Assembly: GCA_036490475.1 (NCBI GenBank)
Contig: DASXDT010000005.1
Coordinates: forward strand, 372,001 to 436,000
Length of the DNA stretch: 64,000 bases
Origin: Candidatus Tumulicola sp.
GTDB lineage: Bacteria; Vulcanimicrobiota; Vulcanimicrobiia; Vulcanimicrobiales; Vulcanimicrobiaceae
Direction of reading: 5' to 3'
Made by a program: the position numbers and the translations under genes. The notes below the pieces were generated by a model. The model saw only the letters and a program-made list of their open reading frames with translations, made no database searches and was not told where the DNA came from. The number at the start of each line of letters is the position of its first letter. Position 1 is the first letter of the stretch. Positions 2,473-19,065 of the stretch are shown piece by piece.

Positions 2473-2484
2473 TGGCTCCTGTTC
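2434..2484 (+). promoter_or_regulatory. Fluoride riboswitch 1
   Basis: It matches the crcB-motif layout: GGCG-AU, P1 strand GGAGC, pseudoknot partner CGCC, AAACC, stem GCC...GGC, UGAUG, P1 strand GCUCC. GGCG pairs with CGCC and GGAGC with GCUCC. It overlaps the end of the transporter gene and precedes the GTPase gene. Downstream GGAG (about 2489-2492) can pair with the CUCC of P1, giving an alternative hairpin. Confidence 0.93.
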
Positions 2485-2505
2485 GAATGGAGACCTCGCT
2501 ACGAC

Positions 2506-4224: not shown

Positions 4225-4799
4225 AACCGGAGAGCGTAGCCCGGCTTCGTGACGCCGAGCGCGCTGCGGCGCGCGTCCTCGACCACGGCTGCATCGAAGA
4301 CCTAACCGAAGTCGAGCGGTTTCTCGCGCGACCGCTGCGCGAAGCTGAAACAGAGTTGCGAGAAGCCCTTGAATCGCTCGGCAGTCTCGATCCGTTCCTT
4401 CGGCGCAATGTGGTGCTGCAAGCAGCCGAGCAAACGATAGGACGGTGCTGGGAAAAGGTCTTTGCGAACGTGGCGCTCCGTTTCTGTGCGCGCTTTTCAA
4501 TTTACATCGACGCAGTTGTAGCTGCTGAAGAACGCTTTTTGGCCGAAAACGGGACGGAACATCCGTGCCGGGTGAAGCCCCGCCGCATAGCGGCCCCACG
4601 TATCGTAACTCCGGATGTTCCCCATGTCACAATCGATGTCGGCGAAACAGAATCGATCGTCACAAGGTGTCTTGTGCAAGTCGAACGGGATCTCAGGGAA
4701 GCGATCGCCGCCGAAGTCGAGGATGCCCGACGACACCTGATGGATCGAGCTATCCTCAACTTAGCCCGCACGCACATTGCGACGCTCTTAGGCGCTTGA
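4221..4799 (+). CDS. Unknown helical protein coupled to the dynamin-like GTPase
   Basis: A 192-residue protein of no family I recognise. It is rich in charged heptad-like helices (residues 1-60 and 145-185), with no signal peptide or membrane segment. Its ATG overlaps the TGA of the GTPase gene (ATGA at 4221-4224), a translational coupling that implies matched amounts and probably a physical partnership; partner subunits are common for bacterial dynamin-like proteins. Its 3' end overlaps the convergent MutS-like gene by 12 bases. Function unknown. Confidence 0.75.
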   Translation: MKPESVARLRDAERAAARVLDHGCIEDLTEVERFLARPLREAETELREALESLGSLDPFLRRNVVLQAAEQTIGRCWEKVFANVALRFCARFSIYIDAVVAAEERFLAENGTEHPCRVKPRRIAAPRIVTPDVPHVTIDVGETESIVTRCLVQVERDLREAIAAEVEDARRHLMDRAILNLARTHIATLLGA

Positions 4800-6290
4800 G
4801 CTAGCCTCACCAAAAATCACTCGATAGACATCGGCGCCGTAACTCGTTCGCTCCGGGGCAGCTTCGACGAGTTTGAACGTTCGCGTCCCGTCGTCCAGCC
4901 GCTCTGCGCGCAGAAAAAGGACGTCCGGTTTTCCGAAGTATGCACGTGCGAACTCGTACTGATGGCTCACAAAGAACACGCGAACCTTTGCCTCCAGAAG
5001 CGCCGTTACAATCTGGCGGGCGACCTCAGCGCCTTCACGCTCGTTCGTGGATGAAAAGGATTCGTTGAAGAGCATGACCGTGTGTGGCCCCACAGTATCG
5101 ATAATGTCGCTTAGACGATGCAGCTCTTCATCCAGCTTACCGCTCGTCATTGCAGCGTCCTCTTCGCGTCGGTAATGCGTGAACAGACCAGTGCAAAGGG
5201 AGGCCTGTGCTGAGGAAGCCGAGACGAACATGCCGCACTGCATCATGAGATAGAAGAGCCCCACGCTACGCAAGAACGTGGACTTGCCGCCCTGGTTGGC
5301 CCCCGTGATGATTGCGAGATCTTTACCACCGGCATCGACTGTGTTAGTAACCACGCTGCTACCCGTGTTCAACACCAAACACGGATCGTACAGTTTCTTT
5401 ATTTGGAAGACATCATCTTCGGCAGCACGTACTTGCGGAAAGCAAATGGGAACGTCCAGCTCGCGCAATCGAACAAGCAAGTTCAGGCATCCAACGTAAA
5501 ACGCCAGTTCTGCCCGCAAGACGAAAAAAAAGCTCACCAGATGATCGCAAGATTGCGAGATCGCGTTGGCAACTAAGTTCAGTCCCCGATCGCGTAGCTC
5601 GGACAATGCTCGCAACCCCGCTTCGTCTCGCTCGTGAATGTGAAACGTATATCGGTTTCGATCTGCGGTGTCGAACCAACGCGCGAACCAGCCCCCGTCC
5701 GTTCTTGCAGGTCCGCGAAGCACGTAGTCCCCGGCCTTATTTCCTTCGCCGAGATGAGCGCTCATTTCCAGGCCACTTCGAAACGACATTTCGTAAAGAT
5801 ACCGTTCGACGGAAGAAAGATAGTCGTCGGCCAGTTCTGCGTGCAGCATCGTAAAGAGCGTCCGAAACGCCTCGGAAGTGAAATCGTTAAGATGGTCGTC
5901 GGCAATCGCGCGTAAGCTACGCAATGATTTCGCTAGGAACTGCAGCAACCCGCTGCAGCGGTATAGCAAGGAGCTCGGCGATCGGCCGAGCGAAAAGAAC
6001 CCTTTGTGGGCTCCTTCAACCACGCTATCGGCCAGCGCAAAGATAGCTCGCACAACGTCTTCTCGGTCGATACAATCTTTAAGGGCGCACTGCCGGTACT
6101 CAATCGCTGCAACGTCGGTTAATGATTGCATAATCACCTTCGGGAGCACGGACGCGACGATGGCATCGCCGGCAGACATTGCGGCGAAAAGCGTGCGCAA
6201 GTCCAGATCAGCTATAGACGCGGTAGAAGAGAGCGAGGGTGTCGTCTCTGCGCTGATGTCTCGGTCGGCGAACAGCAGATGAGGTTTCAC
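4788..6290 (-). CDS. MutS-like ABC ATPase (second of pair)
   Basis: A 500-residue protein with a MutS-family ATPase domain at the C-terminus. The Walker A is TGANQGGKSTFLRSVG near residue 330, the signature region follows, and the Walker B reads VMLFNESFSST. The N-terminal 320 residues are helical and resemble MutS lever/core regions; a mismatch-recognition domain I is not seen. Such proteins are separate from canonical mismatch repair and their job is unknown. Its start overlaps the stop of the upstream MutS-like gene by four bases, so the pair may form a heterodimeric ATPase. It is the last gene of the operon led by fluoride riboswitch 2. Confidence 0.85.
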   Translation of the reverse strand: MKPHLLFADRDISAETTPSLSSTASIADLDLRTLFAAMSAGDAIVASVLPKVIMQSLTDVAAIEYRQCALKDCIDREDVVRAIFALADSVVEGAHKGFFSLGRSPSSLLYRCSGLLQFLAKSLRSLRAIADDHLNDFTSEAFRTLFTMLHAELADDYLSSVERYLYEMSFRSGLEMSAHLGEGNKAGDYVLRGPARTDGGWFARWFDTADRNRYTFHIHERDEAGLRALSELRDRGLNLVANAISQSCDHLVSFFFVLRAELAFYVGCLNLLVRLRELDVPICFPQVRAAEDDVFQIKKLYDPCLVLNTGSSVVTNTVDAGGKDLAIITGANQGGKSTFLRSVGLFYLMMQCGMFVSASSAQASLCTGLFTHYRREEDAAMTSGKLDEELHRLSDIIDTVGPHTVMLFNESFSSTNEREGAEVARQIVTALLEAKVRVFFVSHQYEFARAYFGKPDVLFLRAERLDDGTRTFKLVEAAPERTSYGADVYRVIFGEASSSA

Positions 6291-7813
6291 GATGGGAGTC
6301 GCTTCTTGAGAGATGCGTACGTCAAGCCGTACTTCTCGGCAATCGATTCGGCATATGAACGGCCGCCAGCGGGAGCTCGTCGAAGTTTAAACGTTCGAGC
6401 TTCGGTGTGCCCGTCGACGACTTCGCTTACCAAGCTAACGACAGACGGCCCTAGCCTCGACAATTCAATCAAGAATGTCACGCAGACGCACAGCGCGTCC
6501 AGGGCAATAATACGATCGAAGGTCTTCGTCGCCAGAGTAATCGCGTCTTCGACGGTGGTCGAGCTGAAGATCTCGTTCATGATAATGATGCTGCGTGACG
6601 TAGCGACCGCAAGAAGATCGCGTACCCGAATAAGATCGTCCTGCAATTTGCCGCGCAGCGTCTCGGCGCTTTCCACACGCTCGAAATGGGTGAAGATACG
6701 GTCAAAAATAAAGAGCCTCGCGCTGGAGCCGGGTACCGGTAGTCCCAACATGGCCAAATGATGCAACTGCCCAAACGTTCTCGCGAACGTCGTTTTACCA
6801 CCTTGGTTCGGCCCAGATATAACGAAGACTCGCTCGCATTCTTCTAGATGGAAGTCGTTGCAGACGATCGAGCCTTCAGTATTGGCTAAGCTAGTGGCTA
6901 GAGCTAGGTCAAACGTATCGGTCGCATACAGGGCTTTATCTGACTCGGCGAGATCGGGGTAGCAGAGATTCAGGCCGCTGATAGCGGCTAGTTCTGATAC
7001 GTGTTCGAGGTAGGCAAGATAAAAGCGGACTTCGCGATCGAATCGCTGGACTAAGGGGTCGTTGAAATCCCCGTGTTCTGCGGCAAACGTCCGTAAGGCG
7101 CCGAATTCGATTGGAAACAACGTGGCGACGCCGGCAAGGATCTGCTCTTCTACGTGGTTCAGATACGGCCGCTCGTAGAAAGTCGTTAGATGAGCTGTGA
7201 CGTTTCCTTGTCGGAACTTTTCAAAGATGGCCGTGATTTCGGCGGTATAATCCGGTTGCGATTCGTATCGTCTGACCGTGACTGACCCGCTGCCGACGGT
7301 CAGATTATACTGGATTGCGCCGAGCGCTTCTGCGACGCGCTGCCCGCCGTCCGATAGGCTGGTAAATCCGTTAGAGGTCACATACTGATCGAGGTATTTC
7401 ATGAGCATGGACAAGCCTTGGGATTGCGGATTGGCAAGGGCAAGCGATGCTGCTAGCTTGCGTACGCAACCGCAATACGTCTCGACCGACCGAGCGAACC
7501 ATCGTGCGGTTTGGTCGGCATTTCGCAATTCGTCGGCTTGCCGAAGTTGCTCGCGCATGCTCGTCATTCCGGCGCAAAACTCGGCCACGATACTGCGTAC
7601 ATCCTCGCGCTCGAGATCGCGTGCGATTTCCTGACGATATCGTATTGCCGCACTCGAGGTCAGACTTTCGTAAAAGAAGGGCGTGACATCGAACTCGGGT
7701 GCGCGCTTTGCGACTGCGACGACGATCTGATCCAAGTTGAGATCTCGAAAATATGCCGGTTCCTCGGTGGCTACCACGACGTCATCGAGTGAAAGAATGC
7801 TGTGAAACTCCAT
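6287..7813 (-). CDS. MutS-like ABC ATPase (first of pair)
   Basis: A MutS-related ATPase of about 508 residues. Walker A is SGPNQGGKTTFARTFG and Walker B is SIIIMNEIFSSTT, both in the C-terminal third; as in its neighbour, mismatch-binding domain I appears absent. The frame is open to 7846, but the ATG at 7813 sits five bases after the stop of the preceding gene, which suits coupled translation. The two ATPases differ in sequence although they share their layout, so they are old paralogs rather than a recent duplication. My recollection is that mutS-like genes were among those reported downstream of crcB-motif RNAs, which fits this arrangement. Confidence 0.85.
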   Translation of the reverse strand: MEFHSILSLDDVVVATEEPAYFRDLNLDQIVVAVAKRAPEFDVTPFFYESLTSSAAIRYRQEIARDLEREDVRSIVAEFCAGMTSMREQLRQADELRNADQTARWFARSVETYCGCVRKLAASLALANPQSQGLSMLMKYLDQYVTSNGFTSLSDGGQRVAEALGAIQYNLTVGSGSVTVRRYESQPDYTAEITAIFEKFRQGNVTAHLTTFYERPYLNHVEEQILAGVATLFPIEFGALRTFAAEHGDFNDPLVQRFDREVRFYLAYLEHVSELAAISGLNLCYPDLAESDKALYATDTFDLALATSLANTEGSIVCNDFHLEECERVFVISGPNQGGKTTFARTFGQLHHLAMLGLPVPGSSARLFIFDRIFTHFERVESAETLRGKLQDDLIRVRDLLAVATSRSIIIMNEIFSSTTVEDAITLATKTFDRIIALDALCVCVTFLIELSRLGPSVVSLVSEVVDGHTEARTFKLRRAPAGGRSYAESIAEKYGLTYASLKKRLPS

Positions 7814-7818
7814 TGCCG

Positions 7819-8493
7819 TTAGGCGTAGCGCGGCTGCGCGAAGCAACGGCAGCCTGGATGGAACGGCGGAATCCAGTGAAGACTTCGCTCACGCTGGCCC
7901 CAGCGCTCGCGACACAAGGTGCACGAACCATCGTATCCATGGACGTCAAAGCTCGCGCACCGAATATGGGTTAAAAGGCGCTCGCGATCGGCGAGCCGCC
8001 ACAACCAGTTTCCGATGATTTCCACGAGCGCGAGATCTGTGACGAGCTCCTCGGGCGATGCAACCGCGGCGAAACGATACTTTTCTGGGCCTGTTCTCGC
8101 GGTCCATCCATGTTCCATTAAGGCTTTCAGTCCGGATCGATACGTCGAAGCTCGCATATCTAGACTCCACGCCGTGGCCCGCGCGACAATCATGCGATTG
8201 AGGTCACCGGCACGTGAACGTACCAACCGCGCCGCAATCGAAAGCGATCGCCAACGCGATAAATCCAAGTGTGCCGATGGTCGGAGGGCGAACATCCATA
8301 GATGCGGGCGCTCACCCGAGGCAACGCAATAATCTCTGTACCGTGCGAGAGGCTCCCGCCAAAGGTCGAGCCCGATTAAACAGGCGGCGACATCCGTGCT
8401 ACTGTATGCACCGGGTGAGCGCGCGAGTGTCGTGCGTTCTTCCTGAGGAATATCGGGAAATACGTTTGCGATCGTGGCGTGCGGTTCTTGCAA
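7819..8493 (-). CDS. Unknown protein with C-terminal CxxC / HPGCRC motif
   Basis: A 224-residue protein with no known name. It is clearly homologous to the C-terminal part of the DUF190 fusion at 9066: both have a DxAACLxGLxLWRxPLARYRD block, a TDLALVxxIxxWLxRLxDR block, and end in CxxCRxRWG then PPFHPGCRCFA. The paired cysteines and histidine look like a metal site, probably zinc. The start is TTG at 8493, with AGGAG seven bases upstream. That ribosome site lies in a hairpin with the 3' P1 strand of fluoride riboswitch 2 (GGCTCCT pairs with AGGAGCC). It leads an operon with the two MutS-like ATPases. Confidence 0.8.
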   Translation of the reverse strand: MQEPHATIANVFPDIPQEERTTLARSPGAYSSTDVAACLIGLDLWREPLARYRDYCVASGERPHLWMFALRPSAHLDLSRWRSLSIAARLVRSRAGDLNRMIVARATAWSLDMRASTYRSGLKALMEHGWTARTGPEKYRFAAVASPEELVTDLALVEIIGNWLWRLADRERLLTHIRCASFDVHGYDGSCTLCRERWGQRERSLHWIPPFHPGCRCFAQPRYA

Positions 8494-8524
8494 CGCAAGG
8501 CTCCTCTCTCTCGTTTCTTAGAGT

Positions 8525-8576
8525 ATAGGAGCCATCAGCCGATTCGATCGGCGGTTGCGGGCGGCGCTCCATCGCC
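8525..8576 (-). promoter_or_regulatory. Fluoride riboswitch 2
   Basis: On the minus strand it reads GGCG-AU-GGAGC-GC-CGCC, then CAACC, a GCC...GGC stem with a nine-base loop, UGAUG and GCUCC. All crcB-motif pairings are complete. The downstream AGGAGCC, which contains the ribosome site of the gene starting at 8493, is exactly complementary to the GGCTCCT at its 3' end, so aptamer and sequestering hairpin exclude each other. Confidence 0.95.
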
Positions 8577-8982
8577 TGAACTGTGCCTTTGCCGACGCAC
8601 GCATCGTCTCCTCGTTATACAGTGGTGCTCGATAGGACGCAGAACCGCGTGAGTTGAAGGCCCGCCTGAGAGCAGTGCGAGATTTTCAAAACGGCAGTTT
8701 ATGCCGCTGTTATTGAGCGGTTTCGCTCGCGGCATGTAGCAGGCACAACCACCTTTCGCGGAGTCCAACAGGTCGGCAGAGGGCATAACCCGCATAGAGC
8801 AGCCCTTCACTGGCGTCGCCAACATTGCCGATCATCGACGAGGTTGTCGACCTACCCGAAAGGATTGCATCAGTGCTTTCACACGGCCGGGAAGCGGTCA
8901 CAGACGGGCCCGTCGCCGTTGAACAGGTGCAGTTTTTGAGCATCCCAAAACCTTAGGGTACGCACGATCTAAAACAAGTCCG
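8577..8982. other. Divergent promoter region between riboswitches 2 and 3
   Basis: About 400 bases separate two back-to-back fluoride riboswitches. No reading frame here looks like a protein. The region must hold both promoters, but I cannot pick convincing -35/-10 pairs by eye. Confidence 0.5.
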
Positions 8983-9040
8983 GGCGATGGAGCGCCGCCG
9001 ATGTAACCGCCGGGCAGACTGGCTGATGGCTCCTACATAA
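8983..9040 (+). promoter_or_regulatory. Fluoride riboswitch 3 with SD-sequestering hairpin
   Basis: It reads GGCG-AU-GGAGC-GC-CGCC, then AACC, GCC...GGC, UGAUG, GCUCC, UAC. Immediately after, GCTCCT and CATAAA (9030-9041) can pair with TTTATG and AGGAGC (about 9048-9059) to form a long hairpin that buries the ribosome site of the gene at 9066. This is the clearest expression platform in the window: fluoride-bound P1 takes the CUCC strand and frees the ribosome site. Confidence 0.95.
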
Positions 9041-9065
9041 ATCGCAGTTTATGAGGAGCAGTTAA

Positions 9066-10109
9066 TTGAACGTCCGGCAGCGCGTCACCCTGATGCGAAT
9101 TTACCTGAGCGAAGACGTGCGCCATGGGAAGGATTTACTCTACGTAGCCATCGTCGAGGAATTGCGTTCTCAGGGTTTTGCTGGCGCTACCGTATTGAGA
9201 GGCATCGAAGGGTACGGCGGTTCCGGCGAAATTCGTTCGTCGCGGGCACGAGATACCCCCAAACGCCTGCCCGTCGTCATCGAAGTAATCGATAGCGACC
9301 ACAAAGTGCGCTCCGCCATTCCAACGCTGCGAGCTATGATGTCGAGCGGCCTCATTACGACAGAGCGCGTTCGTATAAAAGTTCTAACTTTGAATCCAGG
9401 ATTCGAAAACCAACACGACTTAGCCGCTCGAGGACGCCGGGAACCCGACGCGACGGTGTTCGAACTCTTTCATGAGCTTGCGCGCCACGACAGAAAACTT
9501 ATAAATGACGCGGTCGGTTCCGCGCATGCCGGCTCGGATATTGCAGCCTGCCTTCTAGGGCTGAACTTGTGGCGTGGGCCGTTGGCCAGGTACCGCGATC
9601 ATTTGCTCGTAACGCGCGAACGACCGCCACTCTGGGCTTTCACCCTAGGACCGTCCGCAGAGTGGAACGCTGCGCTATGGTTGACTCTCCCTATGGTCGC
9701 CCGGCTCGTCCGGACTCGTGTGGGGCGTGTTGACGAGTCCATTCGTACCCGGCCCACGGTCGATAGTACCGGACTCACTGCGGCCCTTCTCCGCGACGGT
9801 TTGCGCCATCTCAGTCAGAGCGCGTACCTCCGCAAGGGTCCAGAGGACATTCACGACTTCGCACCAATTGCACTACCGAGCGCCATCGCAACCGATCTCG
9901 CATTGGTCGACGTGATAGCGCACTGGCTTCTTAGACTTTCCGACCGGCACCATCTCTTAGCGAAATCAAGCGCCGAGCAATTCGAGATCGGCGGGTATAA
10001 AGGAGGTTGCGGTTCCTGTCGCACTCGCTGGGGATCGCAAACTCGTGACGAGCAAGCGGTTCCCCCATTTCATCCCGGCTGCCGGTGCTTCGCTAGTGCA
10101 AAGCGATGA
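9066..10109 (+). CDS. DUF190 domain fused to the CxxC/HPGCRC unknown domain
   Basis: A 347-residue two-domain protein. Residues 1-115 are DUF190, closely resembling the stand-alone protein at 21-392 (ATVLRGIEGYG, LPVVIEVIDSD). Residues 145-347 are the unknown domain also found alone at 7819-8493, ending in CGSCRTRWG and PPFHPGCRCFA. The start is TTG at 9066, with AGGAG seven bases upstream held in the riboswitch hairpin. The fusion ties the CrcB-associated DUF190 family to a new domain in a shared fluoride response, so the two probably act together even when encoded apart. The paired cysteines suggest a bound metal. Function unknown. Confidence 0.85.
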   Translation: MNVRQRVTLMRIYLSEDVRHGKDLLYVAIVEELRSQGFAGATVLRGIEGYGGSGEIRSSRARDTPKRLPVVIEVIDSDHKVRSAIPTLRAMMSSGLITTERVRIKVLTLNPGFENQHDLAARGRREPDATVFELFHELARHDRKLINDAVGSAHAGSDIAACLLGLNLWRGPLARYRDHLLVTRERPPLWAFTLGPSAEWNAALWLTLPMVARLVRTRVGRVDESIRTRPTVDSTGLTAALLRDGLRHLSQSAYLRKGPEDIHDFAPIALPSAIATDLALVDVIAHWLLRLSDRHHLLAKSSAEQFEIGGYKGGCGSCRTRWGSQTRDEQAVPPFHPGCRCFASAKR

Positions 10110-10186: not shown

Positions 10187-10663
10187 CTATGGTGCGTTTT
10201 CCCGACTTTCGGCGAGGAAACGACCTCGCATGGAAGCCTCGAGCATATCCGCGTGCGGTAGGTGCAGCCGGACGTCGCTGTGCTCGAAGGGTAACCATTC
10301 GACAGCGAAAATCCCGTCGTGACGCATTTGGGGATGCACTGCTTGGTTCGTAATCTGCGCGTAAAAGCAAACTTCCAGATAAGCCCCGCCCCAGCGTTCT
10401 GTTCGCCGCTCCGCGACGAAGGCAATCTCGCTAGTTATGACATCATAGCCGGTCTCTTCGCGAACCTCGCGAACGGCCGCCGCCTGTAACGTCTCTCCCA
10501 TTCGCGGCGTTCCGCCAGGCAGGTTCAGAACCGTAAGCGCCCGCTTCCGCTCGCGTACGATCAGCAATTCGCCTGGCGCTCGCGAGACGGCGGCCGACAC
10601 TCTAACGCGGTAGGTCTCAGCTTCGTTCAAGCCACTGTCGGCTGGCAAAGAAAAAGCTCCCAT
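10187..10663 (-). CDS. NUDIX hydrolase
   Basis: A hydrolase of nucleoside-diphosphate-linked compounds, about 158 residues, with a complete NUDIX box (GGTPRMGE...REVREETGYD: G-x5-E-x7-REVREETG). The substrate cannot be told from sequence. The frame runs back into riboswitch 4, so the start is downstream: ATG at 10663, with GAGG ten bases before it. An alternative is the TTG at 10648 (codon 6), which would use GGGAG as ribosome site. That GGGAGC pairs with the GCTCC of the riboswitch and is followed by TTTTTC, so the hairpin could block translation and also terminate transcription. NUDIX sanitation of nucleotides under fluoride stress is a guess. Confidence 0.85.
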   Translation of the reverse strand: MGAFSLPADSGLNEAETYRVRVSAAVSRAPGELLIVRERKRALTVLNLPGGTPRMGETLQAAAVREVREETGYDVITSEIAFVAERRTERWGGAYLEVCFYAQITNQAVHPQMRHDGIFAVEWLPFEHSDVRLHLPHADMLEASMRGRFLAESRENAP

Positions 10664-10683
10664 TCGACATCCTCGCTTTCGAA

Positions 10684-10732
10684 TAGGAGCCATCAGCCGT
10701 TGGCCGGCGGTTTGGGGCGGCGCTCCATCGCC
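10684..10732 (-). promoter_or_regulatory. Fluoride riboswitch 4
   Basis: On the minus strand it reads GGCG-AU-GGAGC-GC-CGCC, AAACC, GCC...GGC, UGAUG, GCUCC. Downstream, GCTCC-ATTCGA pairs with TCGAAT-GGAGC and is followed by a T-run (TTTTTC), giving a hairpin that resembles an intrinsic terminator and covers the start region of the NUDIX gene. Confidence 0.94.
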
Positions 10733-10835
10733 TCGAATACTTAAGAATTCACCTCATTTCTACCCAATCCTTCGCGATATATGCTTGCGCGCGACAGCGC
10801 TTTGCGTCATCCTAAGCATAGGCCTAAATCGGCCA

Positions 10836-10888
10836 GGCGTTGGGGCTCGCCGCGCACTAGACCGCTCGTCAGGATGATGGCTCCTACC
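10836..10888 (+). promoter_or_regulatory. Fluoride riboswitch 5 (divergent copy)
   Basis: GGCG (10836-10839) can pair with CGCC (10848-10851). GGGGC pairs with GCUCC with one G-U pair. The conserved 3' part AUGAUGGCUCCUAC is intact, but the AU after GGCG is UU and the middle stem is weak. It is therefore a diverged but plausible crcB-motif RNA. A GGAG at 10896-10899 can pair with its CUCC and serves the GTG at 10908. Only about 100 bases separate it from the opposing riboswitch 4. Confidence 0.7.
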
Positions 10889-10907
10889 ACCTTTGGAGAT
10901 CCACGCT

Positions 10908-11342
10908 GTGGAAGTTCCTCGTCCCTCAAGGTGGGCGTCTCTCACCGAGCGAGTCCGGCGCTGGCTGGATAGAAAAGCGTGCCAAGATGCCGAATCCATC
11001 GCGGCGTTAGAAGTCGAGTGTGCCGGTCTGCGCGAACGCTTGTCCGAAAGCGAACGGCGTGGGCGCGACCGGAGTGAAAGGCTTTATGAGTTGCAACGTC
11101 TGTATTCGGCCGAGCACTTTGAATATCAAGAGGCGTCGCGCAACCTCAATATCGAGCGTCTTCGCAATGCCGGAATGTTTGGCGATCGAGACATTCTCAT
11201 TTCGCGTTCCAAGGAGCTCCAACGTCGCATTCGATACCTGAAGGAGCGACTACGAAAATACGAAGAGGTCGTGGATATCCATGAAGATGAAGCGCCAATT
11301 GTCATTGAAAGTGAGGCACCAGGAGCCTCACCGGCACGATAG
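10908..11342 (+). CDS. Coiled-coil protein of unknown function
   Basis: A soluble protein of about 144 residues dominated by charged coiled-coil segments (leucine/arginine/glutamate heptads around residues 20-70 and 95-125) with an acidic tail. I recognise no family. The GTG at 10908 is preferred over the TTG at 10893 because GGAG at 10896-10899 lies nine bases before it and would be the site sequestered by riboswitch 5. It lies between riboswitch 5 and the divergent riboswitch 6 ahead of the hydrogenase-like operon, so it may share a transcript with that operon. A scaffold or assembly role for the complex is possible but unproven. Confidence 0.65.
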   Translation: MEVPRPSRWASLTERVRRWLDRKACQDAESIAALEVECAGLRERLSESERRGRDRSERLYELQRLYSAEHFEYQEASRNLNIERLRNAGMFGDRDILISRSKELQRRIRYLKERLRKYEEVVDIHEDEAPIVIESEAPGASPAR

Positions 11343-11356
11343 AAAGTGACCGCAAC

Positions 11357-11418
11357 GGCGGAGGAGTTCGCCGGCGAGTGCAACTCGCGAAAAGCCATTC
11401 GGCCAATGACTCCTGACG
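11357..11418 (+). promoter_or_regulatory. Candidate variant fluoride-type riboswitch with extra hairpin
   Basis: GGCG (11357-11360) can pair with CGCC (11369-11372), and GGAGU (11363-11367) with ACUCC (11409-11413). AAAAGCC-AUUC-GGC follows the order of the crcB motif, then CAAUG. It differs from the consensus in three ways: GA replaces AU after GGCG, CAAUG replaces UGAUG, and a GCGAG-UGCAA-CUCGC hairpin is inserted after the pseudoknot. GGGAG at 11442-11446, the ribosome site of the next gene, can pair with its CUCC. It may be a degenerate copy or a variant with a changed ligand. Confidence 0.5.
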
Positions 11419-11452
11419 AACGAATACGCTGGCGTTACGTTGGGAGAACTGT

Positions 11453-12409
11453 TTGACCCTCACCCCTACCGCGGTCCAGGCGGCACAGGTGCTGACCTTA
11501 GTGCTGTTGTCTCCGTTACTGACTGGGTTCATCGCCCGGCTAGAGGCTGTGGTCGCCGGCAAGCGGGGGCCATCGTTCGTTCAGCCCTACCGCGATATTG
11601 TAAAGCTCTTTCACAAGCAGTCCCTGGTACCCGAGCCATCGTCCTGGGTTTTTCGGACGGCTCCATACGTAGCGTGCGGCGCGTATGCGACAATCGCGAC
11701 ATTGATTCCGGTGTTGACGACGTATCCGCTGCCAGGCGCCACCTTCGGCGACATCCTTGCCGGCGCGTTTCTGTTCGCGTTAGCGGGATTCGTTACCGCG
11801 TTGGCAGCGATCGACTCCGGTTCGCAGTATGCCGACATCGGTAGCAGTCGTGCGACAATGGTCGGCATCCTCGTCGAGCCGACGCTTATCTTTGTTTTCT
11901 TTTCGGTCGCATTCATAACTGGAACAGATCTGCCGTATGCGATGAACGCCGCGTTGCGCCATTCTGCGGCAAATGTGCTTCGCCCGGCCCACGTCCTGGC
12001 TACTGCTGCATTCTTCATGATGATGCTTGTCGACACCGGCCGCATACCTATCGAAAGTTCCTCCGCAACCGTGGAATTCGGGATGATCGATGACGCGCGC
12101 TGGTTCGAGCACTCAGGTCCCTGGATGGCGCTCTTTCGGTGGGGCTCATCCATGAAGCAGTTTCTGCTGTACGTCGTCTTTGTAAACGTGCTGCTGCTTC
12201 CCATGGGGCTTTCGTCAGATGGAAATGTCGGCTCCGTCGCATGGGCTGTTGTCACGCTCCTACTAAAAATGCTCCTCATTGCTGTCGTGGTGGTCGTCAT
12301 AGAAACGTCATTTGCGAAACTGCGACTCTACAAGATTACGGAATTCATTGCGACCGGCTTGCTGGTGGCAGTTTTAGCCGTTTTTGCCTACGTGGTTGGG
12401 GTCGGATGA
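11453..12409 (+). CDS. hyfC: Hydrogenase-4/complex I-like membrane subunit (HyfC/NuoH type)
   Basis: A 318-residue protein with about eight membrane helices, of the NuoH/HycD/HyfC family. This subunit normally joins the redox arm to the proton pumps. Family blocks are present: GKRGPSFVQPYRDIVKLFHK in the first loop and DTGRIPIES...VEFGMIDD in the later acidic loop. The start is TTG at 11453 with GGGAG six bases upstream. It is the first gene of a tightly packed operon in which the first five of six genes each overlap the next by four bases. Whether the complex is a hydrogenase is doubtful because the soluble subunits have lost their cofactor ligands. Confidence 0.9.
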   Translation: MTLTPTAVQAAQVLTLVLLSPLLTGFIARLEAVVAGKRGPSFVQPYRDIVKLFHKQSLVPEPSSWVFRTAPYVACGAYATIATLIPVLTTYPLPGATFGDILAGAFLFALAGFVTALAAIDSGSQYADIGSSRATMVGILVEPTLIFVFFSVAFITGTDLPYAMNAALRHSAANVLRPAHVLATAAFFMMMLVDTGRIPIESSSATVEFGMIDDARWFEHSGPWMALFRWGSSMKQFLLYVVFVNVLLLPMGLSSDGNVGSVAWAVVTLLLKMLLIAVVVVVIETSFAKLRLYKITEFIATGLLVAVLAVFAYVVGVG

Positions 12410-13077
12410 GTCTGCACGAGCTCACTGTGCCACAAGCGATGGCGGGCACGATCGCCATGCTGTTACTGCTCGTGCAGCTAGCATTGTTCCGGTCGGTCGT
12501 CATCCCGGAATTCATCCGGCTCTACGCAGTCCAGTCGTGGCTCGTTGCGGCGATTTGTCTCGGCGCCGGTATCACCGAGCACGCCTGGGATCTGATCGTC
12601 CTGGCTATCCTGACCGCCCTGTTTAAGGGACTGCTTCTTCCTGGATACATGCGCGCGCTAGTTCGAGGCATTTCGATGCGAATCGAACTGCCCGCCCGAG
12701 TAAACGTTCTGTTGTCCTTGATTATCGCGGGAGCGTTGATCGGGGTCTCGATTTTAACAGCAGTGCAGTTGCCGCTGCTGGGCGGCATCTTCTTAGCAAA
12801 TGCCGACCTTGCAACAACGCTTTCAATAGTTTTCACGGGATTTCTTCTTGCGATCTTACGGCCAAATGCGGTGGCGCAAGTCATCGCCTTTCTGACGCTC
12901 GAGAATGGCTTATTTTTCGGTACGATCACCCTTGCTCCGGGTCTGCCGTTTATCATCGGCGTCTTGCTGTTGATTGACGTGCTCGCGGCGGTCGTCGTAT
13001 TCGCCATTTTGGTTCGAGCGTTGGTGGGGTCGCAGGCCGCCGCATCCGTTTCGCTCTTTGAAAGGCTGCGAGGGTGA
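12406..13077 (+). CDS. hyfE: HyfE-like membrane subunit
   Basis: A 223-residue, about seven-helix membrane protein similar in length and layout to HyfE of hydrogenase 4 (NuoK-like C-terminal half, for example LRPNAVAQVIAFLTLENGLF, where the glutamate is the NuoK-type channel residue). The ATG at 12406 overlaps the stop of hyfC; the frame upstream of it is not coding. It forms part of the proton- or ion-translocating membrane arm. Confidence 0.85.
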   Translation: MSLHELTVPQAMAGTIAMLLLLVQLALFRSVVIPEFIRLYAVQSWLVAAICLGAGITEHAWDLIVLAILTALFKGLLLPGYMRALVRGISMRIELPARVNVLLSLIIAGALIGVSILTAVQLPLLGGIFLANADLATTLSIVFTGFLLAILRPNAVAQVIAFLTLENGLFFGTITLAPGLPFIIGVLLLIDVLAAVVVFAILVRALVGSQAAASVSLFERLRG

Positions 13078-14519
13078 GCGCGCTATCGTGGGTTATTGTT
13101 GCGATTCCCTTGGGATTGGCATTGGCCGTTCTCGTGGTGCCCTCGCGCGCCGGTCGTTATGCGACTGCCATCGGATCGATTACGTGCGCCGCATGCATCG
13201 GGGTGCTGCTTGTGCGCATCGCCGGCGGGGAAGGCCGTTTGGACGCTCTCTCGGCGCTGTTTCTCGCTCCAGTCGCGATCGTCTACGGGTCAGTAGGACT
13301 GTATTGCCTGTGGTATGTGCGCGCAGAGCCGATCGGCGCGAACGGAGAGGAGCGCTACCGTCGCGAGTTTCTTGCGCTGACGAATGCGTTCGCTTGCGCC
13401 GAAATCGTCGTACCCCTTTTGAGCAATATGGCCGCGCTGTGGGTGGCGCTCGAAGTGACCACGATCCTAGCGGCATTACTCGTGCGTTTGCAAGGCTCAG
13501 ACGCGGCTCTCGAAGCGGCGTGGAAATACCTGTTAGTTGCGTCTTGTGGTTTGGCACTCGGTTTGATCGGGGTCGTTGTACTCTACGCGTCGGGTACGGG
13601 TGCTCTTGGGAGTCATTACGCCCCGCTGTGGTCTTCCTTTATGGCGGTGTCGTCGAAACTCGATTCGAACGCATTGCGACTCGCTTTCATATTCGCGCTG
13701 ATCGGCTTTGGAACCAAGATGGGTCTGGCTCCGATGCACACCTGGCTTCCCGACGCACATGGCGCGGGCCCAACGCCGACGAGCGCGATGTTGTCCGGCG
13801 TGTTGCTATCGGATGCGTTATACGTGATTCTCCGCTTCGCGGCAATTGCGAACGCCGCGCTCGGAACGGGCATGACGCAGCGCTCATTCTTCATCGTTGG
13901 ACTGCTGTCGTTGTTTGTTGGTGCGTTCTTCTTGCTACGCCAACGTGACATTAAACGAATGCTCGCCTATTCGAGTATCGAGCACATGGGCATCATCGCA
14001 TGCGGCCTCGCATTTGGGGCACCCTTGGCGTTGGCTGGGGCGTTGTTACACGTCGTCAATCATGCCGCAGCCAAGGCACTGGCGTTCTATGGGGCTGGCC
14101 GGTTGGCGGCACGGTACGATACGCGAGAAATAGAACGCATTCGCGGCGCAGCTACGATCTTGCCCATATCGGGAACGTTGTTTGCAATGGCGGCGCTGGC
14201 CCTGGCGGGAATGCCCCCATTCGGTCCATTTCGTAGCGAGCTAATGATCCTCTCCGGAGGTTTCTCCGGATTGGCGTGGCCGGTCGCCATCGTCGTTGTC
14301 GGATTATTGCTGGTTGCTTTCGCCGGTATTACGCGTTGGACGATCGCGATGACGGCCGGTGCGGCGCCGCAAGGCGTGCAGCGCGGTGATCGTGATCCGG
14401 CTGCGATCGCGGCGATGGTAGCAGTGTTTACGGTGGTTCTCGTAATAGGACTCTACGTTCCAACTCCGCTCGCCGTGCTCATCGCCAATGCTGGAGCCAT
14501 CGTACGAGGACATCCGTGA
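13074..14519 (+). CDS. hyfF: HyfF-like antiporter-type subunit (NuoM/NuoN family)
   Basis: A 481-residue subunit of the Mrp/NuoLMN antiporter family with about fourteen helices. Channel residues of the family are kept: the glutamate in WVALEVTT, the broken-helix region GLAPMHTWLPDAH, the lysine in HAAAKALAFY, and SSIEHMGII. The start is GTG at 13074, overlapping the previous stop. Preservation of these residues contrasts with the lost cofactor ligands of the next two subunits, so ion movement may still be selected. Confidence 0.88.
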   Translation: MSALSWVIVAIPLGLALAVLVVPSRAGRYATAIGSITCAACIGVLLVRIAGGEGRLDALSALFLAPVAIVYGSVGLYCLWYVRAEPIGANGEERYRREFLALTNAFACAEIVVPLLSNMAALWVALEVTTILAALLVRLQGSDAALEAAWKYLLVASCGLALGLIGVVVLYASGTGALGSHYAPLWSSFMAVSSKLDSNALRLAFIFALIGFGTKMGLAPMHTWLPDAHGAGPTPTSAMLSGVLLSDALYVILRFAAIANAALGTGMTQRSFFIVGLLSLFVGAFFLLRQRDIKRMLAYSSIEHMGIIACGLAFGAPLALAGALLHVVNHAAAKALAFYGAGRLAARYDTREIERIRGAATILPISGTLFAMAALALAGMPPFGPFRSELMILSGGFSGLAWPVAIVVVGLLLVAFAGITRWTIAMTAGAAPQGVQRGDRDPAAIAAMVAVFTVVLVIGLYVPTPLAVLIANAGAIVRGHP

Positions 14520-15898
14520 AGGCCTCAGACGCACTCCTTGAGACGCGCAATGCGCTCGCTGCCGGTGCGCGCTTTGCGTGGCTGTTCTTCGAAGCGGTTG
14601 GGGGCGCCACGCGCGCCCATTACGTGGTCGATGATGCCGGCAAGCTGCACGATTGTGCCGGTGACGTCGAAGGAACGTTACGGTCGCTAGCCTCCGCCAC
14701 GCCTGCCGCAGAATGGTACGAGCGCGAAGCCATCGAGCGCTTCGACATTTCGTTTTCGGAGCTTCCGCTGGCGGCAACGCTGAGCTACCCGGTTGCGGCC
14801 GAGGAGCTTCGCAGCTATTCCGCTTCTGCCGAGGTCTCCACGGTGCTCTATGGTCCCGTGCGTTCGGGAATCGTTGAATCCGCGCGTTGGAATGTCGGCA
14901 CGGCTGGCGAAGATTTCATCGACGTCTGTCCATCGATGTTTTTCAAGCATCGCGGGCTGGAAGAACGTTTCGAGGGCACGCCGCTGCAGCTGGCGCCCTA
15001 CGTGGCCGAGTACGTCTCGGGAGCAACGGCATCGAGCCACGCAGCCGTGTTCAGCCGTGCGGTCGAGGCAGCGCTCGGCATTCGCGTTCCCGATCGTGCG
15101 CGTGCCGCGCGAGCCGTACTTGTCGAGCTCGAGCGGATTCACCAGCATCTTGACTCGTTGGCAAAACTCGCCGATGATGGCTCGCTGTCGGTTGGAGCTG
15201 CCATGACATTTGCGGCGAAGGAGCGCGTTCACCGTTTGCTCTGTGAAGCCACCGGTAACCGATTCGCGCGTGGAACGATCTGCGTCGGAGGAACGCGATT
15301 CGACGCGCTCTCGCGCCTGGCCGACGCGTGCGAACGTGCGCTGGACGAGGTCCAACAGCAGGCGACGCAGACCGTCGCGGGATTGGTATCGACGCCGTCG
15401 CTCATAGATCGCCTTATCGGAACCGGTCGATTGGACGAGTCGACGATTCGTGCATACGGTGCCGTCGGTCCGGTGGCGCGCGGCAGCCACGTTTCTAGCG
15501 ACGTCCGCGCCTGTGACGGCTACCTTTACACGCCGCTTGATGGTGAGGAGACGCGAGAGCAAACCGGCGATGCCGCGGCCCGCGCTCTGGTACGAGTCGG
15601 GGAAATAACACGTTCGTTCCAGCTCATCCGCAACGCCCTCGATGCTGACCCTGCCGGGCCCAGTGTAGTGGCGTATACTCCACAAGACGGATCCGCTATC
15701 GCGCGGGTCGAGTCACCGCAGGGCGAGCTATTGTATTTCGTCCGCATCGAGAGCGGTATTCTGTCGCGTGTTGCGATCCGATCTGCGTCCTTTGCGAATT
15801 GGCCAGCGTTCGTGCCTTCTCTGCCCGGAAACATCTTTACCGACTTTTCGTTTATCGAGCACTCCTTTGGAGCGATCCAGGCAGAGGTCGATCGATGA
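14516..15898 (+). CDS. hyfG: HyfG-like large subunit lacking all NiFe cysteines
   Basis: A 460-residue NuoCD/HyfG-type protein. The NuoC-like part ends in WYEREAIERFDISF, and the large-subunit part keeps the family framework (RARAARAVLVELERIHQHL, the GRLD and VGPVARGS blocks). In true [NiFe] hydrogenases the L1 motif is CxxC...H and the L2 motif is DPCxxC. Here L1 aligns as V-S168-G-A-T171-ASS-H175, and L2, at the extreme C-terminus, aligns as G-A-I454-Q-A-E457. All four metal cysteines are replaced while the flanking sequence aligns without gaps. NuoD of complex I also lacks NiFe, but here the partner small subunit has lost its cluster too. The GTG start overlaps the hyfF stop. Confidence 0.9.
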   Translation: MKASDALLETRNALAAGARFAWLFFEAVGGATRAHYVVDDAGKLHDCAGDVEGTLRSLASATPAAEWYEREAIERFDISFSELPLAATLSYPVAAEELRSYSASAEVSTVLYGPVRSGIVESARWNVGTAGEDFIDVCPSMFFKHRGLEERFEGTPLQLAPYVAEYVSGATASSHAAVFSRAVEAALGIRVPDRARAARAVLVELERIHQHLDSLAKLADDGSLSVGAAMTFAAKERVHRLLCEATGNRFARGTICVGGTRFDALSRLADACERALDEVQQQATQTVAGLVSTPSLIDRLIGTGRLDESTIRAYGAVGPVARGSHVSSDVRACDGYLYTPLDGEETREQTGDAAARALVRVGEITRSFQLIRNALDADPAGPSVVAYTPQDGSAIARVESPQGELLYFVRIESGILSRVAIRSASFANWPAFVPSLPGNIFTDFSFIEHSFGAIQAEVDR

Positions 15899-16638
15899 GC
15901 TGGCTGATGCGCGGTATACGAGGTGGTATTCTCACGACGCGCTATCCGTCCGGCGGCGACGAGATGCCGCAAGCGTACCGCGGCGCGATCGAAGCGTTGC
16001 CGGCAGACGTCGACGTCCAGCGTCGTGCCGCTGCGGCCTGCCTATCTGGAGCAATCATACCGAGCGAGGGCCGTGCCGTCATCGACCCAACACGCTGTTT
16101 TCAATGCGGAGAATGCGCACGCGCCTTTCCGGAGGCGTTCCAAACGACTTCCACGTTCGAGCTCGCGCTGACGGGCGGCGATCCGCATTCGATCCAAGAA
16201 CGGCTCGCCAAACGGGTGCGCACATTAGGACGATCGATTCATCTTCGTCATGTCGACGCAGGCAGCGACGGTTCTGAAGAGCAGGAGCTTGCAGCAATTT
16301 TCAATCCATACTACGACGCAAATCGCTTGGGAATCTTTCTCACGGCGACGCCCCGACATGCCGATGTGCTCGTCGTGACCGGTGCTGTGACGCAATCCAT
16401 GCGCGAGCCATTGCTGCGGACGTTCGACGCAATGCCGAATCCCAAAGTCGTCATCGCACTCGGAACCACGGCGTGCTCCGGCGGAATCTTTGCCGCCGCA
16501 GGCGGCGCGCCCGTCCCGGTACGCGCGGTGCTCGACGTCGATGTCATGATCCCAGGAGCACCACCTGCGCCGCTCTCGATTCTTCACGGCCTCTGGGTCG
16601 CGCTCGGTCGCTCAGATGCACGAGGAACGTTCTTGTGA
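15895..16638 (+). CDS. hyfI: Ferredoxin-like/HyfI small subunit fusion with lost proximal cluster
   Basis: A 247-residue protein. Residues 1-95 resemble HyfH/HycF (TTRYP entry motif, then one ferredoxin motif) and residues 105-247 are the NuoB/HyfI small subunit. In the small subunit all four proximal-cluster cysteines are gone: positions aligned to CNGC are D125 and E128, the third is T192 and the fourth is A222 (PGAPPAP). Cys194 remains nearby. In the ferredoxin part Cys68, Cys71 and Cys74 are present but the fourth is phenylalanine; Cys49, the equivalent of the CP cysteine of the missing first motif, could complete one [4Fe-4S] cluster in the usual crossed fashion. The ATG overlaps the previous stop. 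Confidence 0.88.
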   Translation: MSWLMRGIRGGILTTRYPSGGDEMPQAYRGAIEALPADVDVQRRAAAACLSGAIIPSEGRAVIDPTRCFQCGECARAFPEAFQTTSTFELALTGGDPHSIQERLAKRVRTLGRSIHLRHVDAGSDGSEEQELAAIFNPYYDANRLGIFLTATPRHADVLVVTGAVTQSMREPLLRTFDAMPNPKVVIALGTTACSGGIFAAAGGAPVPVRAVLDVDVMIPGAPPAPLSILHGLWVALGRSDARGTFL

Positions 16639-18614
16639 TTGCTTTGCTCGTCGCCTTTGCGCTGTGCATTGTCGGCATCATTCTCGTCGTCGCGATACGC
16701 GGACCGCTCGGTCGGGCGATCGGCTTTATGTTCCTTGGCGCCGCTGGGATCGCATCGCTCATATCGGCTGCGACCGCCCTTCATTCGAGTAGATCGTATG
16801 CGTCTGGCCCGCCGGATGCACACCTGCTGCTACGCATGGACGCAGTTTCGGGATTCTATATCGGTCTAATCGGAGCAATTGCCGTAATCGTTGCGGTGTT
16901 TGCGTTGGGCGGCCGCAGTGCCGACGAACGAGGCGCTGGTCACACGGCTGCGGCAAGTTCCTGCGCTGTCCTACTGGCGTCGTTAGTAACGTGCGCGGCC
17001 GGCGACGTCTTTTTGTTTCTTTTCGGCTGGGAATTGCTCGCATTGGCGTTTTTCTGGTCAATTGGATATGCAGGGACGGACGAATCCGCGCCGCGATCTG
17101 CGTACGTTACACTCGTCGTTACACATGTTGCAGGCGGCTGCCTACTTGCCGCGTTATTGACGCTCGCCCACGCTGCGGGCAGTTTCGAGGTCGGAGACGC
17201 GATTGCGGCCGGAACCCACTTTGTGGGCGCCTCCGGCGGCTTCATACTTGTACTACTCGTTATTGGGTTCGGCGCGAAGTTCGGCATGCTCCCGCTACAG
17301 GGTTGGATGCCCTACGGTTATCGAAGTGCGCCGAGTGCGGTTGCGGCGTTGATGGCTGGCGGTGCACTCAACGTAGGCTTTTACGGCATATCACGTTTCG
17401 TGCTTGCGTTCCCCCAGGCGCCTCTGTGGTTAGCCATCGCAGTGATTGCCGTCGGTTCTGTCGGCGCATTTTTTGGCATTTCATGGGCTGCTGGGCAACG
17501 AGACATGCGCGCGCTCGCTGCCTACTCAAGCGTCGAAAACAGCGGCATCATCTTTGCTGCCTTCGGCGTCGCGATAGCGGGTCGGGCGCTTCACGATCCG
17601 ATGCTGATGGGATTCGCGCTGGCAGCAGCCTCAGTGCAAATCGTTGCGCACGCCGTGGCCAAGAGCACCCTATTTCTGACCATTGCTTCAGTGAATGATG
17701 CGCGTTCAAGCACCGACCTGGATAAGCTCGGAGGCTTAGCGCGCGTACTTCCGTTGACAACCCTTTCCGCAATATTGTCCGGCATGTCGCTAGCAGCGCT
17801 TCCGCCGCTTGCTGGCTTTGTCGGCGAGTGGCTCGTGCTTGAATCGCTCATGCAAGCGTTTCGTACCGGAAACGTTGCTTCCGAAGTCATTTTCGCACTC
17901 GCCGGCGCAATCATTGGCGTTGCGGCTGGCATTGCGATCGTGACGTTCACGAAGTTTGTCGGCATTGGTCTGCTTGGCGCTTCACGCTCAGTAACGCTAC
18001 AGAGGGGTTTCGTTGTTCGAGCTCCGCTGCGCGGGGTGGGGTTGCTTCTCGGCTGTGCGGCGATTGTCGGAACCGGCGTGTTCGCTCGATCCTTACTTTC
18101 CACCATTGCACCGAGCATTGACTCGGCTTCGCACAGCGATGCAGTTGCCGCGATGATCGGAGTTTTCCCGTTAGTCGCGCCTGCCTTCGGTGGCTTTTCG
18201 TCGGTCTCGCCTGGGGGAATGGGCCTAGTGCTGGCAGGGTTCACGATCATGTTTTGGATCGTTTCAAAGCTATTTTCGCGGCCGGCGTCGTCAGCGACCC
18301 CCGCTTGGACATCGGGCGAGCCGTACCGCTCTTGGACGCAGTACGGCGGCACAGGTTATGCCAATCCAACCCGGGTCATTTTGGACGTCGTTACACGAAC
18401 AACGCGAGCCGTCAATCCAGAGATACGTACGTACGACAGCTCGGTTCGGCCGTTTTTCGAGCTGGCATGGTATCGCTGGCTTTTTACACCTCTGTTGTGG
18501 ATTGCATCCGCCGTACGAGCGACGCAGTCAGGCAGCATCGGTGCCTACTTGGCCTACATTCTGACGTTTACAATCTTAATGCTATTACTATTTCCCTCGA
18601 TCCGCCATTGGTAG
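16635..18614 (+). CDS. hyfB: HyfB-like antiporter-type subunit (NuoL family)
   Basis: A subunit of about 659 residues of the NuoL/HyfB family with about sixteen helices. Family channel residues are intact: glutamate in LFLFGWELLAL, the AKFGMLPLQGWMPYG region, lysine in HAVAKSTLFL and SSVENSGII. The GTG at 16635 overlaps the hyfI stop (GTGA); the longer frame upstream overlaps hyfI and is spurious. It closes the core of the complex; the UspA gene follows after seven bases. Confidence 0.88.
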   Translation: MIALLVAFALCIVGIILVVAIRGPLGRAIGFMFLGAAGIASLISAATALHSSRSYASGPPDAHLLLRMDAVSGFYIGLIGAIAVIVAVFALGGRSADERGAGHTAAASSCAVLLASLVTCAAGDVFLFLFGWELLALAFFWSIGYAGTDESAPRSAYVTLVVTHVAGGCLLAALLTLAHAAGSFEVGDAIAAGTHFVGASGGFILVLLVIGFGAKFGMLPLQGWMPYGYRSAPSAVAALMAGGALNVGFYGISRFVLAFPQAPLWLAIAVIAVGSVGAFFGISWAAGQRDMRALAAYSSVENSGIIFAAFGVAIAGRALHDPMLMGFALAAASVQIVAHAVAKSTLFLTIASVNDARSSTDLDKLGGLARVLPLTTLSAILSGMSLAALPPLAGFVGEWLVLESLMQAFRTGNVASEVIFALAGAIIGVAAGIAIVTFTKFVGIGLLGASRSVTLQRGFVVRAPLRGVGLLLGCAAIVGTGVFARSLLSTIAPSIDSASHSDAVAAMIGVFPLVAPAFGGFSSVSPGGMGLVLAGFTIMFWIVSKLFSRPASSATPAWTSGEPYRSWTQYGGTGYANPTRVILDVVTRTTRAVNPEIRTYDSSVRPFFELAWYRWLFTPLLWIASAVRATQSGSIGAYLAYILTFTILMLLLFPSIRHW

Positions 18615-18621
18615 GTGTTGT

Positions 18622-19065
18622 ATGTTTTCACACATTATCGTAGCTTGGGACGGTTCCGAGTGTGCTCGTCGAGCTTTCGAGTACGCAATCGAGATTGCGA
18701 AACGGTTCGAGTCGCGTTTGCAGCTCGTTTCCGTTGCGCAGCCGGCTGCTTATGCTGAAACATCCGCAGAAGTGGAAAACGATAGAGCCAAAGCGCACCG
18801 ATTTTACGAAGGCAGTGCGGCCTCGCTCATCGACCTGAGCCGTGAACGAGGTGTCGGGACAGAATTGCTGATCGTCGAAGGCGGCCATCCGGCTGAGGGC
18901 GTGGTCGACACTGCCTCGAAGATTGGAGCTGATCTCATTGTCGTGGGCCGCCGCGGGCTCTCAAGCGGAATCACGCGTTTCCTGATAGGGAGTATCTCCG
19001 ACCGAATCGCGCGTTATGCGCACTGCCCAGTATTGTTAATTGACAACCCGCAGAAACGATCATGA
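18622..19065 (+). CDS. Universal stress protein (UspA family)
   Basis: A 147-residue single Usp domain with the ATP-binding pattern GRRGLSSGITRFLIGSIS (G-x2-G-x9-G-S). It begins seven bases after the hyfB stop, so it belongs to the hydrogenase-like operon. Universal stress proteins bind ATP or AMP and adjust energy-stress responses. I recall that uspA-like genes have been reported among those downstream of fluoride riboswitches. The start is ATG with AGGTGTTGT before it. Confidence 0.9.
   Translation: MFSHIIVAWDGSECARRAFEYAIEIAKRFESRLQLVSVAQPAAYAETSAEVENDRAKAHRFYEGSAASLIDLSRERGVGTELLIVEGGHPAEGVVDTASKIGADLIVVGRRGLSSGITRFLIGSISDRIARYAHCPVLLIDNPQKRS

Follow-up and report, generated by a model that had tools for sequence, protein, structure and literature searches.

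A fluoride-riboswitch-linked relative of formate hydrogenlyase lacks NiFe and proximal-cluster ligands and retains its ion-channel residues

Introduction

An association between fluoride riboswitches and a "formate hydrogen lyase" has already been published (Weinberg 2010, PMC2864571; PMC11139923), and the enzyme of this fluoride regulon has been read as serving fermentation (PMC11139923). Here we analyze a stretch of 64,000 nucleotides from Candidatus Tumulicola sp. (contig DASXDT010000005.1 of assembly GCA_036490475.1, positions 372,001 to 436,000; the window), in which six genes at 11453-18614 (+), in the order hyfC-E-F-G-(Fd)I-B with Fd a ferredoxin domain, encode a complex related to formate hydrogenlyase (FHL). 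Its HyfG and HyfI subunits have lost all NiFe and proximal-cluster ligands, its channel residues are retained, and hyfC is preceded by a fluoride aptamer.

The FHL genes of the fluoride (crcB motif) regulon share with this locus a fluoride aptamer in the 5′ untranslated region and an island with crcB, mutS-like, universal stress protein (Usp), and NUDIX genes. The literature describes their product as a fermentative enzyme, whereas the sequences examined here show it to be unable to hold NiFe. The published fluoride-regulon "formate hydrogen lyase" (Weinberg 2010) is most likely the fluoride clade described below, and we infer that the "formate hydrogenlyase" genes of Baker 2012 belong to it as well.

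In both structure and sequence, HyfC, HyfG, HyfI, and HyfB most closely match the Hyf/Hyc FHL of Escherichia coli (PDB 7z0s), whose HycF is matched by the ferredoxin domain of the window HyfI. Unlike the E. coli system, the window complex has no NiFe site, proximal cluster, formate dehydrogenase, or HyfD, its hyfB comes last and not first, and the HycF-like domain is fused to HyfI. Energy-converting hydrogenase-related (Ehr) complexes are likewise homologous to group 4 hydrogenases, have antiporter-like subunits, and lack NiFe ligands (PMC6349859; PMC10284858); those published are presumed to link redox chemistry in the cytoplasm to the movement of charge. The window complex differs from them in its fluoride-riboswitch control and in the further loss of one of the two ferredoxin clusters and of the proximal cluster; the intact cluster chain that the literature leads one to expect of Ehr, although not a formal part of the Ehr definition, is not found here.

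Like the window complex, Mrp antiporters lack a complete redox chain and combine a NuoK-like subunit with NuoL/NuoM-like subunits that have the same Glu/Lys/His, and the antiporter subunits of the window share with them the conserved Glu of transmembrane helix 5 (TM5), the TM7/TM8 Lys, and the TM12 charge. However, the window complex retains NuoH-, NuoC/D-, and NuoB-like subunits, which Mrp lacks, and its operon has no MrpB/E/F/G-type genes and so no full mrp set. Complex I (NuoBCDH) has homologous quinone-module and antiporter subunits, and the C terminus of HyfG carries ExDR as in NuoD and not CxxC, but the window complex lacks the N2 ligands, the conserved GPxHP His, and the NADH module. 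The window genome has a separate NuoD.

Gene content and affiliation of the operon

The genes of the operon, as called from domain searches, are the following.

11453 to 12409, forward strand: hyfC, NuoH-like membrane subunit with a TTG start (Pfam PF00146, 6e-31; FHL subunit 4, 4e-43)
12406 to 13077, forward strand: hyfE, small NuoK-like membrane subunit (NCBIfam NF008556, 1.7e-12, under its cut-off)
13074 to 14519, forward strand: hyfF, antiporter-like subunit (PF00361, 5e-50; hydrogenase 4 subunit F, 9e-114)
14516 to 15898, forward strand: hyfG, large subunit with a NuoC-like N terminus and a NuoD/HycE-like body (domain searches, alignments, and AlphaFold)
15895 to 16638, forward strand: hyfI with a fused N-terminal ferredoxin domain (domain searches, alignments, and AlphaFold)
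16629 to 18614, forward strand: hyfB, antiporter-like subunit (PF00361, 9e-44; hydrogenase 4 subunit B, 2e-100; the exact GTG start is inferred)

Orthologs of hyfE stand at the equivalent position in related loci by synteny. The original prediction, made from the sequence alone, had derived the complex from complex I itself, and this did not hold up: because the nearest solved relatives in profile and structure comparison are FHL and membrane-bound hydrogenase (MBH), the complex is grouped, within the complex I superfamily, with hydrogenase-4 and FHL.

Loss of metal ligands in HyfG and HyfI

In profile and multiple alignments, Ser168, Thr171, Ile454, and Glu457 of HyfG align with the motifs that hold the NiFe cysteines in E. 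coli HycE (7z0s), and in a profile alignment Asp125, Glu128, Thr192, and Ala222 of HyfI align with the four proximal-cluster cysteines of MbhJ (6cfw) and HycG. Both sets of replacements had been named in the original prediction and were confirmed at every position. HyfG also has GPVRSG where complex I chains have GPxHP (profile alignment), and the residue aligned with the conserved His of that motif, at the quinone site, is not His. The folds of the two subunits survive without the metals, since their AlphaFold models are confident (mean predicted local distance difference test score [pLDDT] of 88) and match FHL best, with the FHL subunit HycE as the top PDB match for HyfG (pLDDT 88.1; TMq 0.87) and FHL 7z0s_G and MBH 6cfw_J for HyfI (pLDDT 87.9).

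HyfI lacks not only the proximal ligand set but also one of the two ferredoxin cluster ligand sets. One [4Fe-4S] site survives, the most that had been predicted, and its ferredoxin-type ligands Cys49, Cys68, Cys71, and Cys74 are invariant in all 13 orthologs and in the other fluoride-clade members examined. By analogy to NuoI, we take the retained set to hold the cluster adjacent to the proximal one. The original prediction that no electron path is left is well supported for the usual path, but a total absence does not follow, since this one site is conserved.

Conservation and selection among orthologs

Among 149 genomes of the phylum, 12 orthologs of the operon were found (58 to 67% HyfG identity), giving 13 loci with the window, all from one Ca. 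Eremiobacterota family. All four NiFe cysteines are replaced in every locus, and the two NiFe-binding CxxC motifs of group 4 [NiFe] hydrogenases are missing from all 13 HyfG proteins. The proximal ligands are completely lost in nine loci, and three of the four are lost in the other four (L046-L049), which retain a lone Cys128. With at most one proximal Cys in any of the 13 loci, there are never enough for a four-Cys cluster. Fixation of the substituted positions in a clade, which the original prediction had left to be checked, was thus found for the NiFe site, and the proximal cluster is incomplete throughout.

Open reading frames are present in all orthologs, and ratios of nonsynonymous to synonymous substitution rates (dN/dS) of 0.09 to 0.25 for three same-genus loci indicate purifying selection on the subunits. 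The original prediction had held that cysteines in close relatives or a decaying operon would tell against it; apart from the lone Cys128, no relative within the window clade retains them, and dN/dS is low. A sequencing or assembly artifact was rejected on the basis of the 13 independent genomes.

The NiFe maturation gene hypD is present in the window genome and went undetected in eight of the 13 genomes that encode the complex, among them ones estimated to be 95 to 100% complete. No formate dehydrogenase gene was seen among the genes searched near the window operon or annotated at related plasmid loci, and no NADH-module genes (NuoEFG) in the operon or its annotated counterparts. Other Eremiobacterota group 4 homologs (L021-L024, L026-L030, and L032-L037) retain all NiFe and proximal cysteines; hypD was undetected in most of their genomes and found only in G117, G091, and G092.

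The antiporter-type subunits had been predicted to keep their channel glutamates and lysines, and an alignment of the group that has lost both NiFe and proximal ligands bears this out. Glu136, Lys218, His342, Lys346, and Glu401 of HyfB, Glu127, Lys215, His222, His330, Lys334, and Glu389 of HyfF, and Arg133, Glu142, and Glu208 of HyfC are retained in every aligned row.

The hyfC leader and its predicted control

Two elements were delineated ahead of hyfC.

11348 to 11422, forward strand: divergent fluoride aptamer that ends 31 bases before the hyfC start (RF01734, 21.2 bits, E 0.057, under the gathering score)
11405 to 11446, forward strand: proposed expression platform, in which the pseudoknot CUCC strand pairs with the GGGAG ribosome-binding site in an alternative fold

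A covariance model that we built from aptamers of related loci, excluding the window, scores the aptamer at 36.1 bits (E 3e-7, the E values of this model being rough), and an aptamer occupies the same position before hyfC in the orthologs. The minimum free energy structure of the platform region has a z score of -2.2. The CUCC strand, which is the 3′ strand of the aptamer, can pair with the GGGAG preceding the TTG start of hyfC, and this duplex exceeds 197 of 200 shuffles in the window and all 200 in L039, L040, L042, L046, and L049. Since the pairing goes beyond shuffles and is altered on both sides between orthologs, it suggests translational control, in which fluoride would free the hyfC ribosome-binding site. 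The duplex was not above shuffles in L041, L043, L045, L048, L050, and others, where a different platform or start codon may be in use; for L041, the start of hyfC may be closer to the aptamer than assumed. Promoter and terminator scans gave nothing exceeding shuffles.

A fluoride clade and its stepwise loss of electron carriers

Related loci were gathered mostly by protein similarity from genomes and plasmids; a HyfG scan of genome contigs, because of its narrow patterns, recovered only the window family and one archaeal relative. The window group forms one clade with Mycobacterium branderi, Burkholderiales, a Euryarchaeota genome, and a second Eremiobacterota type (type 2), with support of 99 and 100 by the Shimodaira-Hasegawa-like approximate likelihood ratio test (SH-aLRT), the only support computed for these quick tree searches, in a HyfG tree and in a HyfC+F+G+B tree that leaves out HyfI. 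The gene order hyfC-E-F-G-I-B and the ferredoxin domain at the HyfI N terminus are clade wide.

In 29 of 30 members of the clade, counting the window, hyfC (in Mycobacterium, a NUDIX-hyfC unit) is preceded by a fluoride aptamer; this count was not blind, some type 2 loci having been picked with riboswitch positions known, and it covers members related to each other. The sole exception, L115, has an extra hyfB upstream, near the contig start. None of 17 relatives outside the clade has the aptamer, and there hyfB is mostly first. The link between clade and riboswitch, for which the original prediction had proposed a survey, is far stronger than could be seen from the window alone. That the leader RNAs resemble fluoride aptamers only by chance was rejected because of the aptamer position across the clade.

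No fluoride-clade member examined has a complete NiFe ligand set. The Burkholderiales proteins, with their incomplete NiFe site, retain both ferredoxin cluster motifs and the proximal cysteines, and the archaeon and type 2 Eremiobacterota retain one ferredoxin set and the proximal cysteines. Mycobacterium and the window clade are sisters (SH-aLRT 100) and retain only one ferredoxin set, Mycobacterium keeping one of the four NiFe-motif cysteines. On the tree that leaves out HyfI, the electron wire is thus shed stepwise, first NiFe, then one ferredoxin cluster, and then, in the ancestor of Mycobacterium and the window clade, the proximal cluster.

The hyfB-first locus L101, on plasmid pMESIL01 of Allomeiothermus silvanus, lies outside the fluoride clade, has no fluoride riboswitch, and has likewise lost the NiFe and proximal ligands. 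This loss is independent, so the double loss arose at least twice. In another genome, a window-type and a type 2 operon of the fluoride clade lie side by side (L090/L041, G048:C148), each with its own aptamer.

Possible functions of the complex

We lean, with modest confidence, toward reading the complex as a redox-independent, Mrp-like H+/cation exchanger for fluoride stress, and the "formate hydrogenlyase" of the fluoride regulon is probably an ion exchanger and not a hydrogen-making enzyme. In favor of the exchanger are the ligand losses fixed across the 13 loci, the low dN/dS, the retained channel residues, the aptamer ahead of hyfC, the neighbors in the fluoride islands, the stepwise loss of electron carriers, and the undetected hypD in eight genomes. 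The cytoplasm becomes more acidic under fluoride, and after exporters the class most often linked to the riboswitch is that of Na+/H+ antiporters (PMC11139923); isolated complex I antiporter modules conduct protons (PMC11496545). In the mechanism we envisage, rising fluoride would fold the aptamer, the CUCC strand would leave the ribosome-binding site, and the complex would be made. HyfB, HyfF, HyfE, and HyfC would then act as an Mrp-type secondary exchanger, moving protons out against a cation, and this export would correct the acidification caused by HF entry and support the membrane potential that CrcB/Fluc needs for F- expulsion. HyfG and HyfI would cap HyfC structurally or gate it, and the last [4Fe-4S] cluster would have a structural or regulatory role. 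The core of the earlier view, a fluoride-linked complex with ion channels and without the usual electron path, is well supported; the support does not extend to its complex I origin or to fluoride handling by the complex itself.

If the exchanger reading is correct, a gene set often found in the fluoride regulon has been misread since 2010 as a fermentative formate hydrogenlyase, and its product is instead a fluoride-induced complex I relative whose electron carriers were removed one by one while the ion path was kept. It would offer a naturally dissected system in which to ask how far complex I can translocate ions when no electrons are transferred, and it would be a new candidate for how cells under fluoride stress maintain their pH and ion balance.

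Several points weigh against this reading. A pure Mrp-like exchanger needs no HyfC, HyfG, or HyfI, yet all are conserved under selection, and the invariant ligands of the remaining [4Fe-4S] cluster hint at a role in redox or sensing. Because Burkholderiales, the archaeon, and type 2 Eremiobacterota retain the proximal cluster, the function of the family may originally have involved redox coupling. The window hyfC aptamer is itself divergent, falls under the Rfam cut-off, and has the consensus AU replaced in its first loop, so its predicted binding of fluoride is less certain.

The invariant cysteines, the proximal cluster of related clade members, the two ferredoxin clusters of Burkholderiales, and the purifying selection on HyfG and HyfI would all suit a redox-driven pump, in which electrons would pass via the remaining ferredoxin-type cluster to an acceptor bound nearby and drive ion translocation. 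We consider such a pump unlikely: the window clade lacks the ligands for NiFe and for any second cluster, HyfG has no His at the conserved GPxHP position, and the operon and its annotated counterparts have no formate dehydrogenase or NADH-module gene.

It is improbable, in our judgment, that the complex is a fluoride transporter or fluoride-gated channel in which the emptied acidic HyfI/HyfG pocket, or HyfC, would bind F- (perhaps as Mg-F) and couple it to H+. The tight fluoride-riboswitch control fits this proposal, as do an acidic run (Asp121-Glu131) at the former cluster site of HyfI and residues found only in the fluoride clade in HyfC (Tyr126, Pro161, and His180), HyfG (Ser122, Lys144, and Phe432), and HyfI (Phe150 and Thr152), but the relevance of these residues is only predicted, CrcB is already present in the island and in the genome, and anion movement by a complex I-type subunit is not known. 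We give an equally low probability to a fully redox-independent complex I-type machine that would take fluoride stress itself as its cue and in which F- or Mg-fluoride in the emptied cluster/NiFe pocket would gate H+/cation exchange.

A regulated assembly or signaling platform, whose cluster or pocket would sense redox, pH, or fluoride and whose membrane arm would relay the signal, for example via Usp, seems to us more doubtful still. The Usp gene directly follows hyfB here and in seven related loci (synteny), and the soluble domains are conserved though stripped of electron carriers, but signaling alone would not account for why buried channel Lys/Glu are fully conserved in both antiporter subunits.

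That the complex is a true hydrogenase-4/FHL aiding fermentation under fluoride stress, which is the assumption of the fluoride literature (PMC2864571, PMC11139923) and which Hyf/FHL-like gene order and folds might suggest, is very improbable, given the missing NiFe ligands and proximal cluster, the incomplete NiFe ligands of every fluoride-clade member examined, the lack of a formate dehydrogenase gene among the neighbors searched, and the undetected hypD of 8 of the 13 genomes; for the window clade it is already refuted unless an unprecedented ligand set binds NiFe. We give as little credence to a decaying operon or pseudogene with only a historical linkage to the fluoride island, which the successive metal-ligand losses could evoke and which is rejected by dN/dS, open reading frames in all orthologs, invariant channel residues, and the conserved aptamer position and aptamer-to-ribosome-binding-site pairing.

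The fluoride island

The riboswitch-like RNAs noticed ahead of the operon in the original prediction are fluoride aptamers of family RF01734, four of them in the window above the curated cut-off, with weak ones at 10827 and 11348. All seven aptamers of the genome at the search threshold lie within C5:367166-382893, an island of about 16 kb, and the operon begins at C5:383453. Genes in the island encode CrcB, DUF190 copies, NUDIX, MutS-domain-V proteins, a dynamin-like GTPase, and Usp; the neighbors in other phyla include enolase, pyrophosphatase, and CrcB. The following features flank the operon in the window.

2425 to 2488, forward strand: fluoride riboswitch of the dynamin-like gene (48.9 bits)
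2506 to 4224, forward strand: dynamin-family GTPase (PF00350, 1e-17)
4788 to 8493, reverse strand: three genes, two with MutS domain V (PF00488) at 6287-7846 and 4788-6290 and one, 7819-8493, whose product has no named family
8519 to 8585, reverse strand: fluoride riboswitch ahead of the 8493-4788 genes (48.1 bits)
8974 to 9042, forward strand: fluoride riboswitch of the DUF190 gene (48.7 bits)
9066 to 10109, forward strand: DUF190 protein with an extra C-terminal domain (PF02641, 2e-30)
10187 to 10663, reverse strand: NUDIX hydrolase (PF00293, 1e-16; start inferred at the second ATG, outside the aptamer)
10677 to 10741, reverse strand: fluoride riboswitch of the NUDIX gene (53.2 bits)
10827 to 10893, forward strand: weak fluoride aptamer ahead of the gene for a 149-amino-acid protein (Rfam 26.6 bits, E 0.001, under the gathering score; 29.1 bits with our model)
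10893 to 11342, forward strand: 149-amino-acid protein of no known family between two weak aptamers (start uncertain)
18622 to 19065, forward strand: Usp (PF00582, 6e-32)

Homologs of the 149-amino-acid protein occur in the islands of L039, L041, L042, L046, and L049. The MutS-domain-V pair (4788-7846) and the dynamin-like GTPase are under fluoride riboswitches in the window; genes like these recur in other Eremiobacterota islands, and the dynamin gene also in Burkholderia islands. The C-terminal domain of the DUF190 protein, of about 240 amino acids, matches the same related-locus DNA as the product of 7819-8493, so the two proteins share an unnamed domain.

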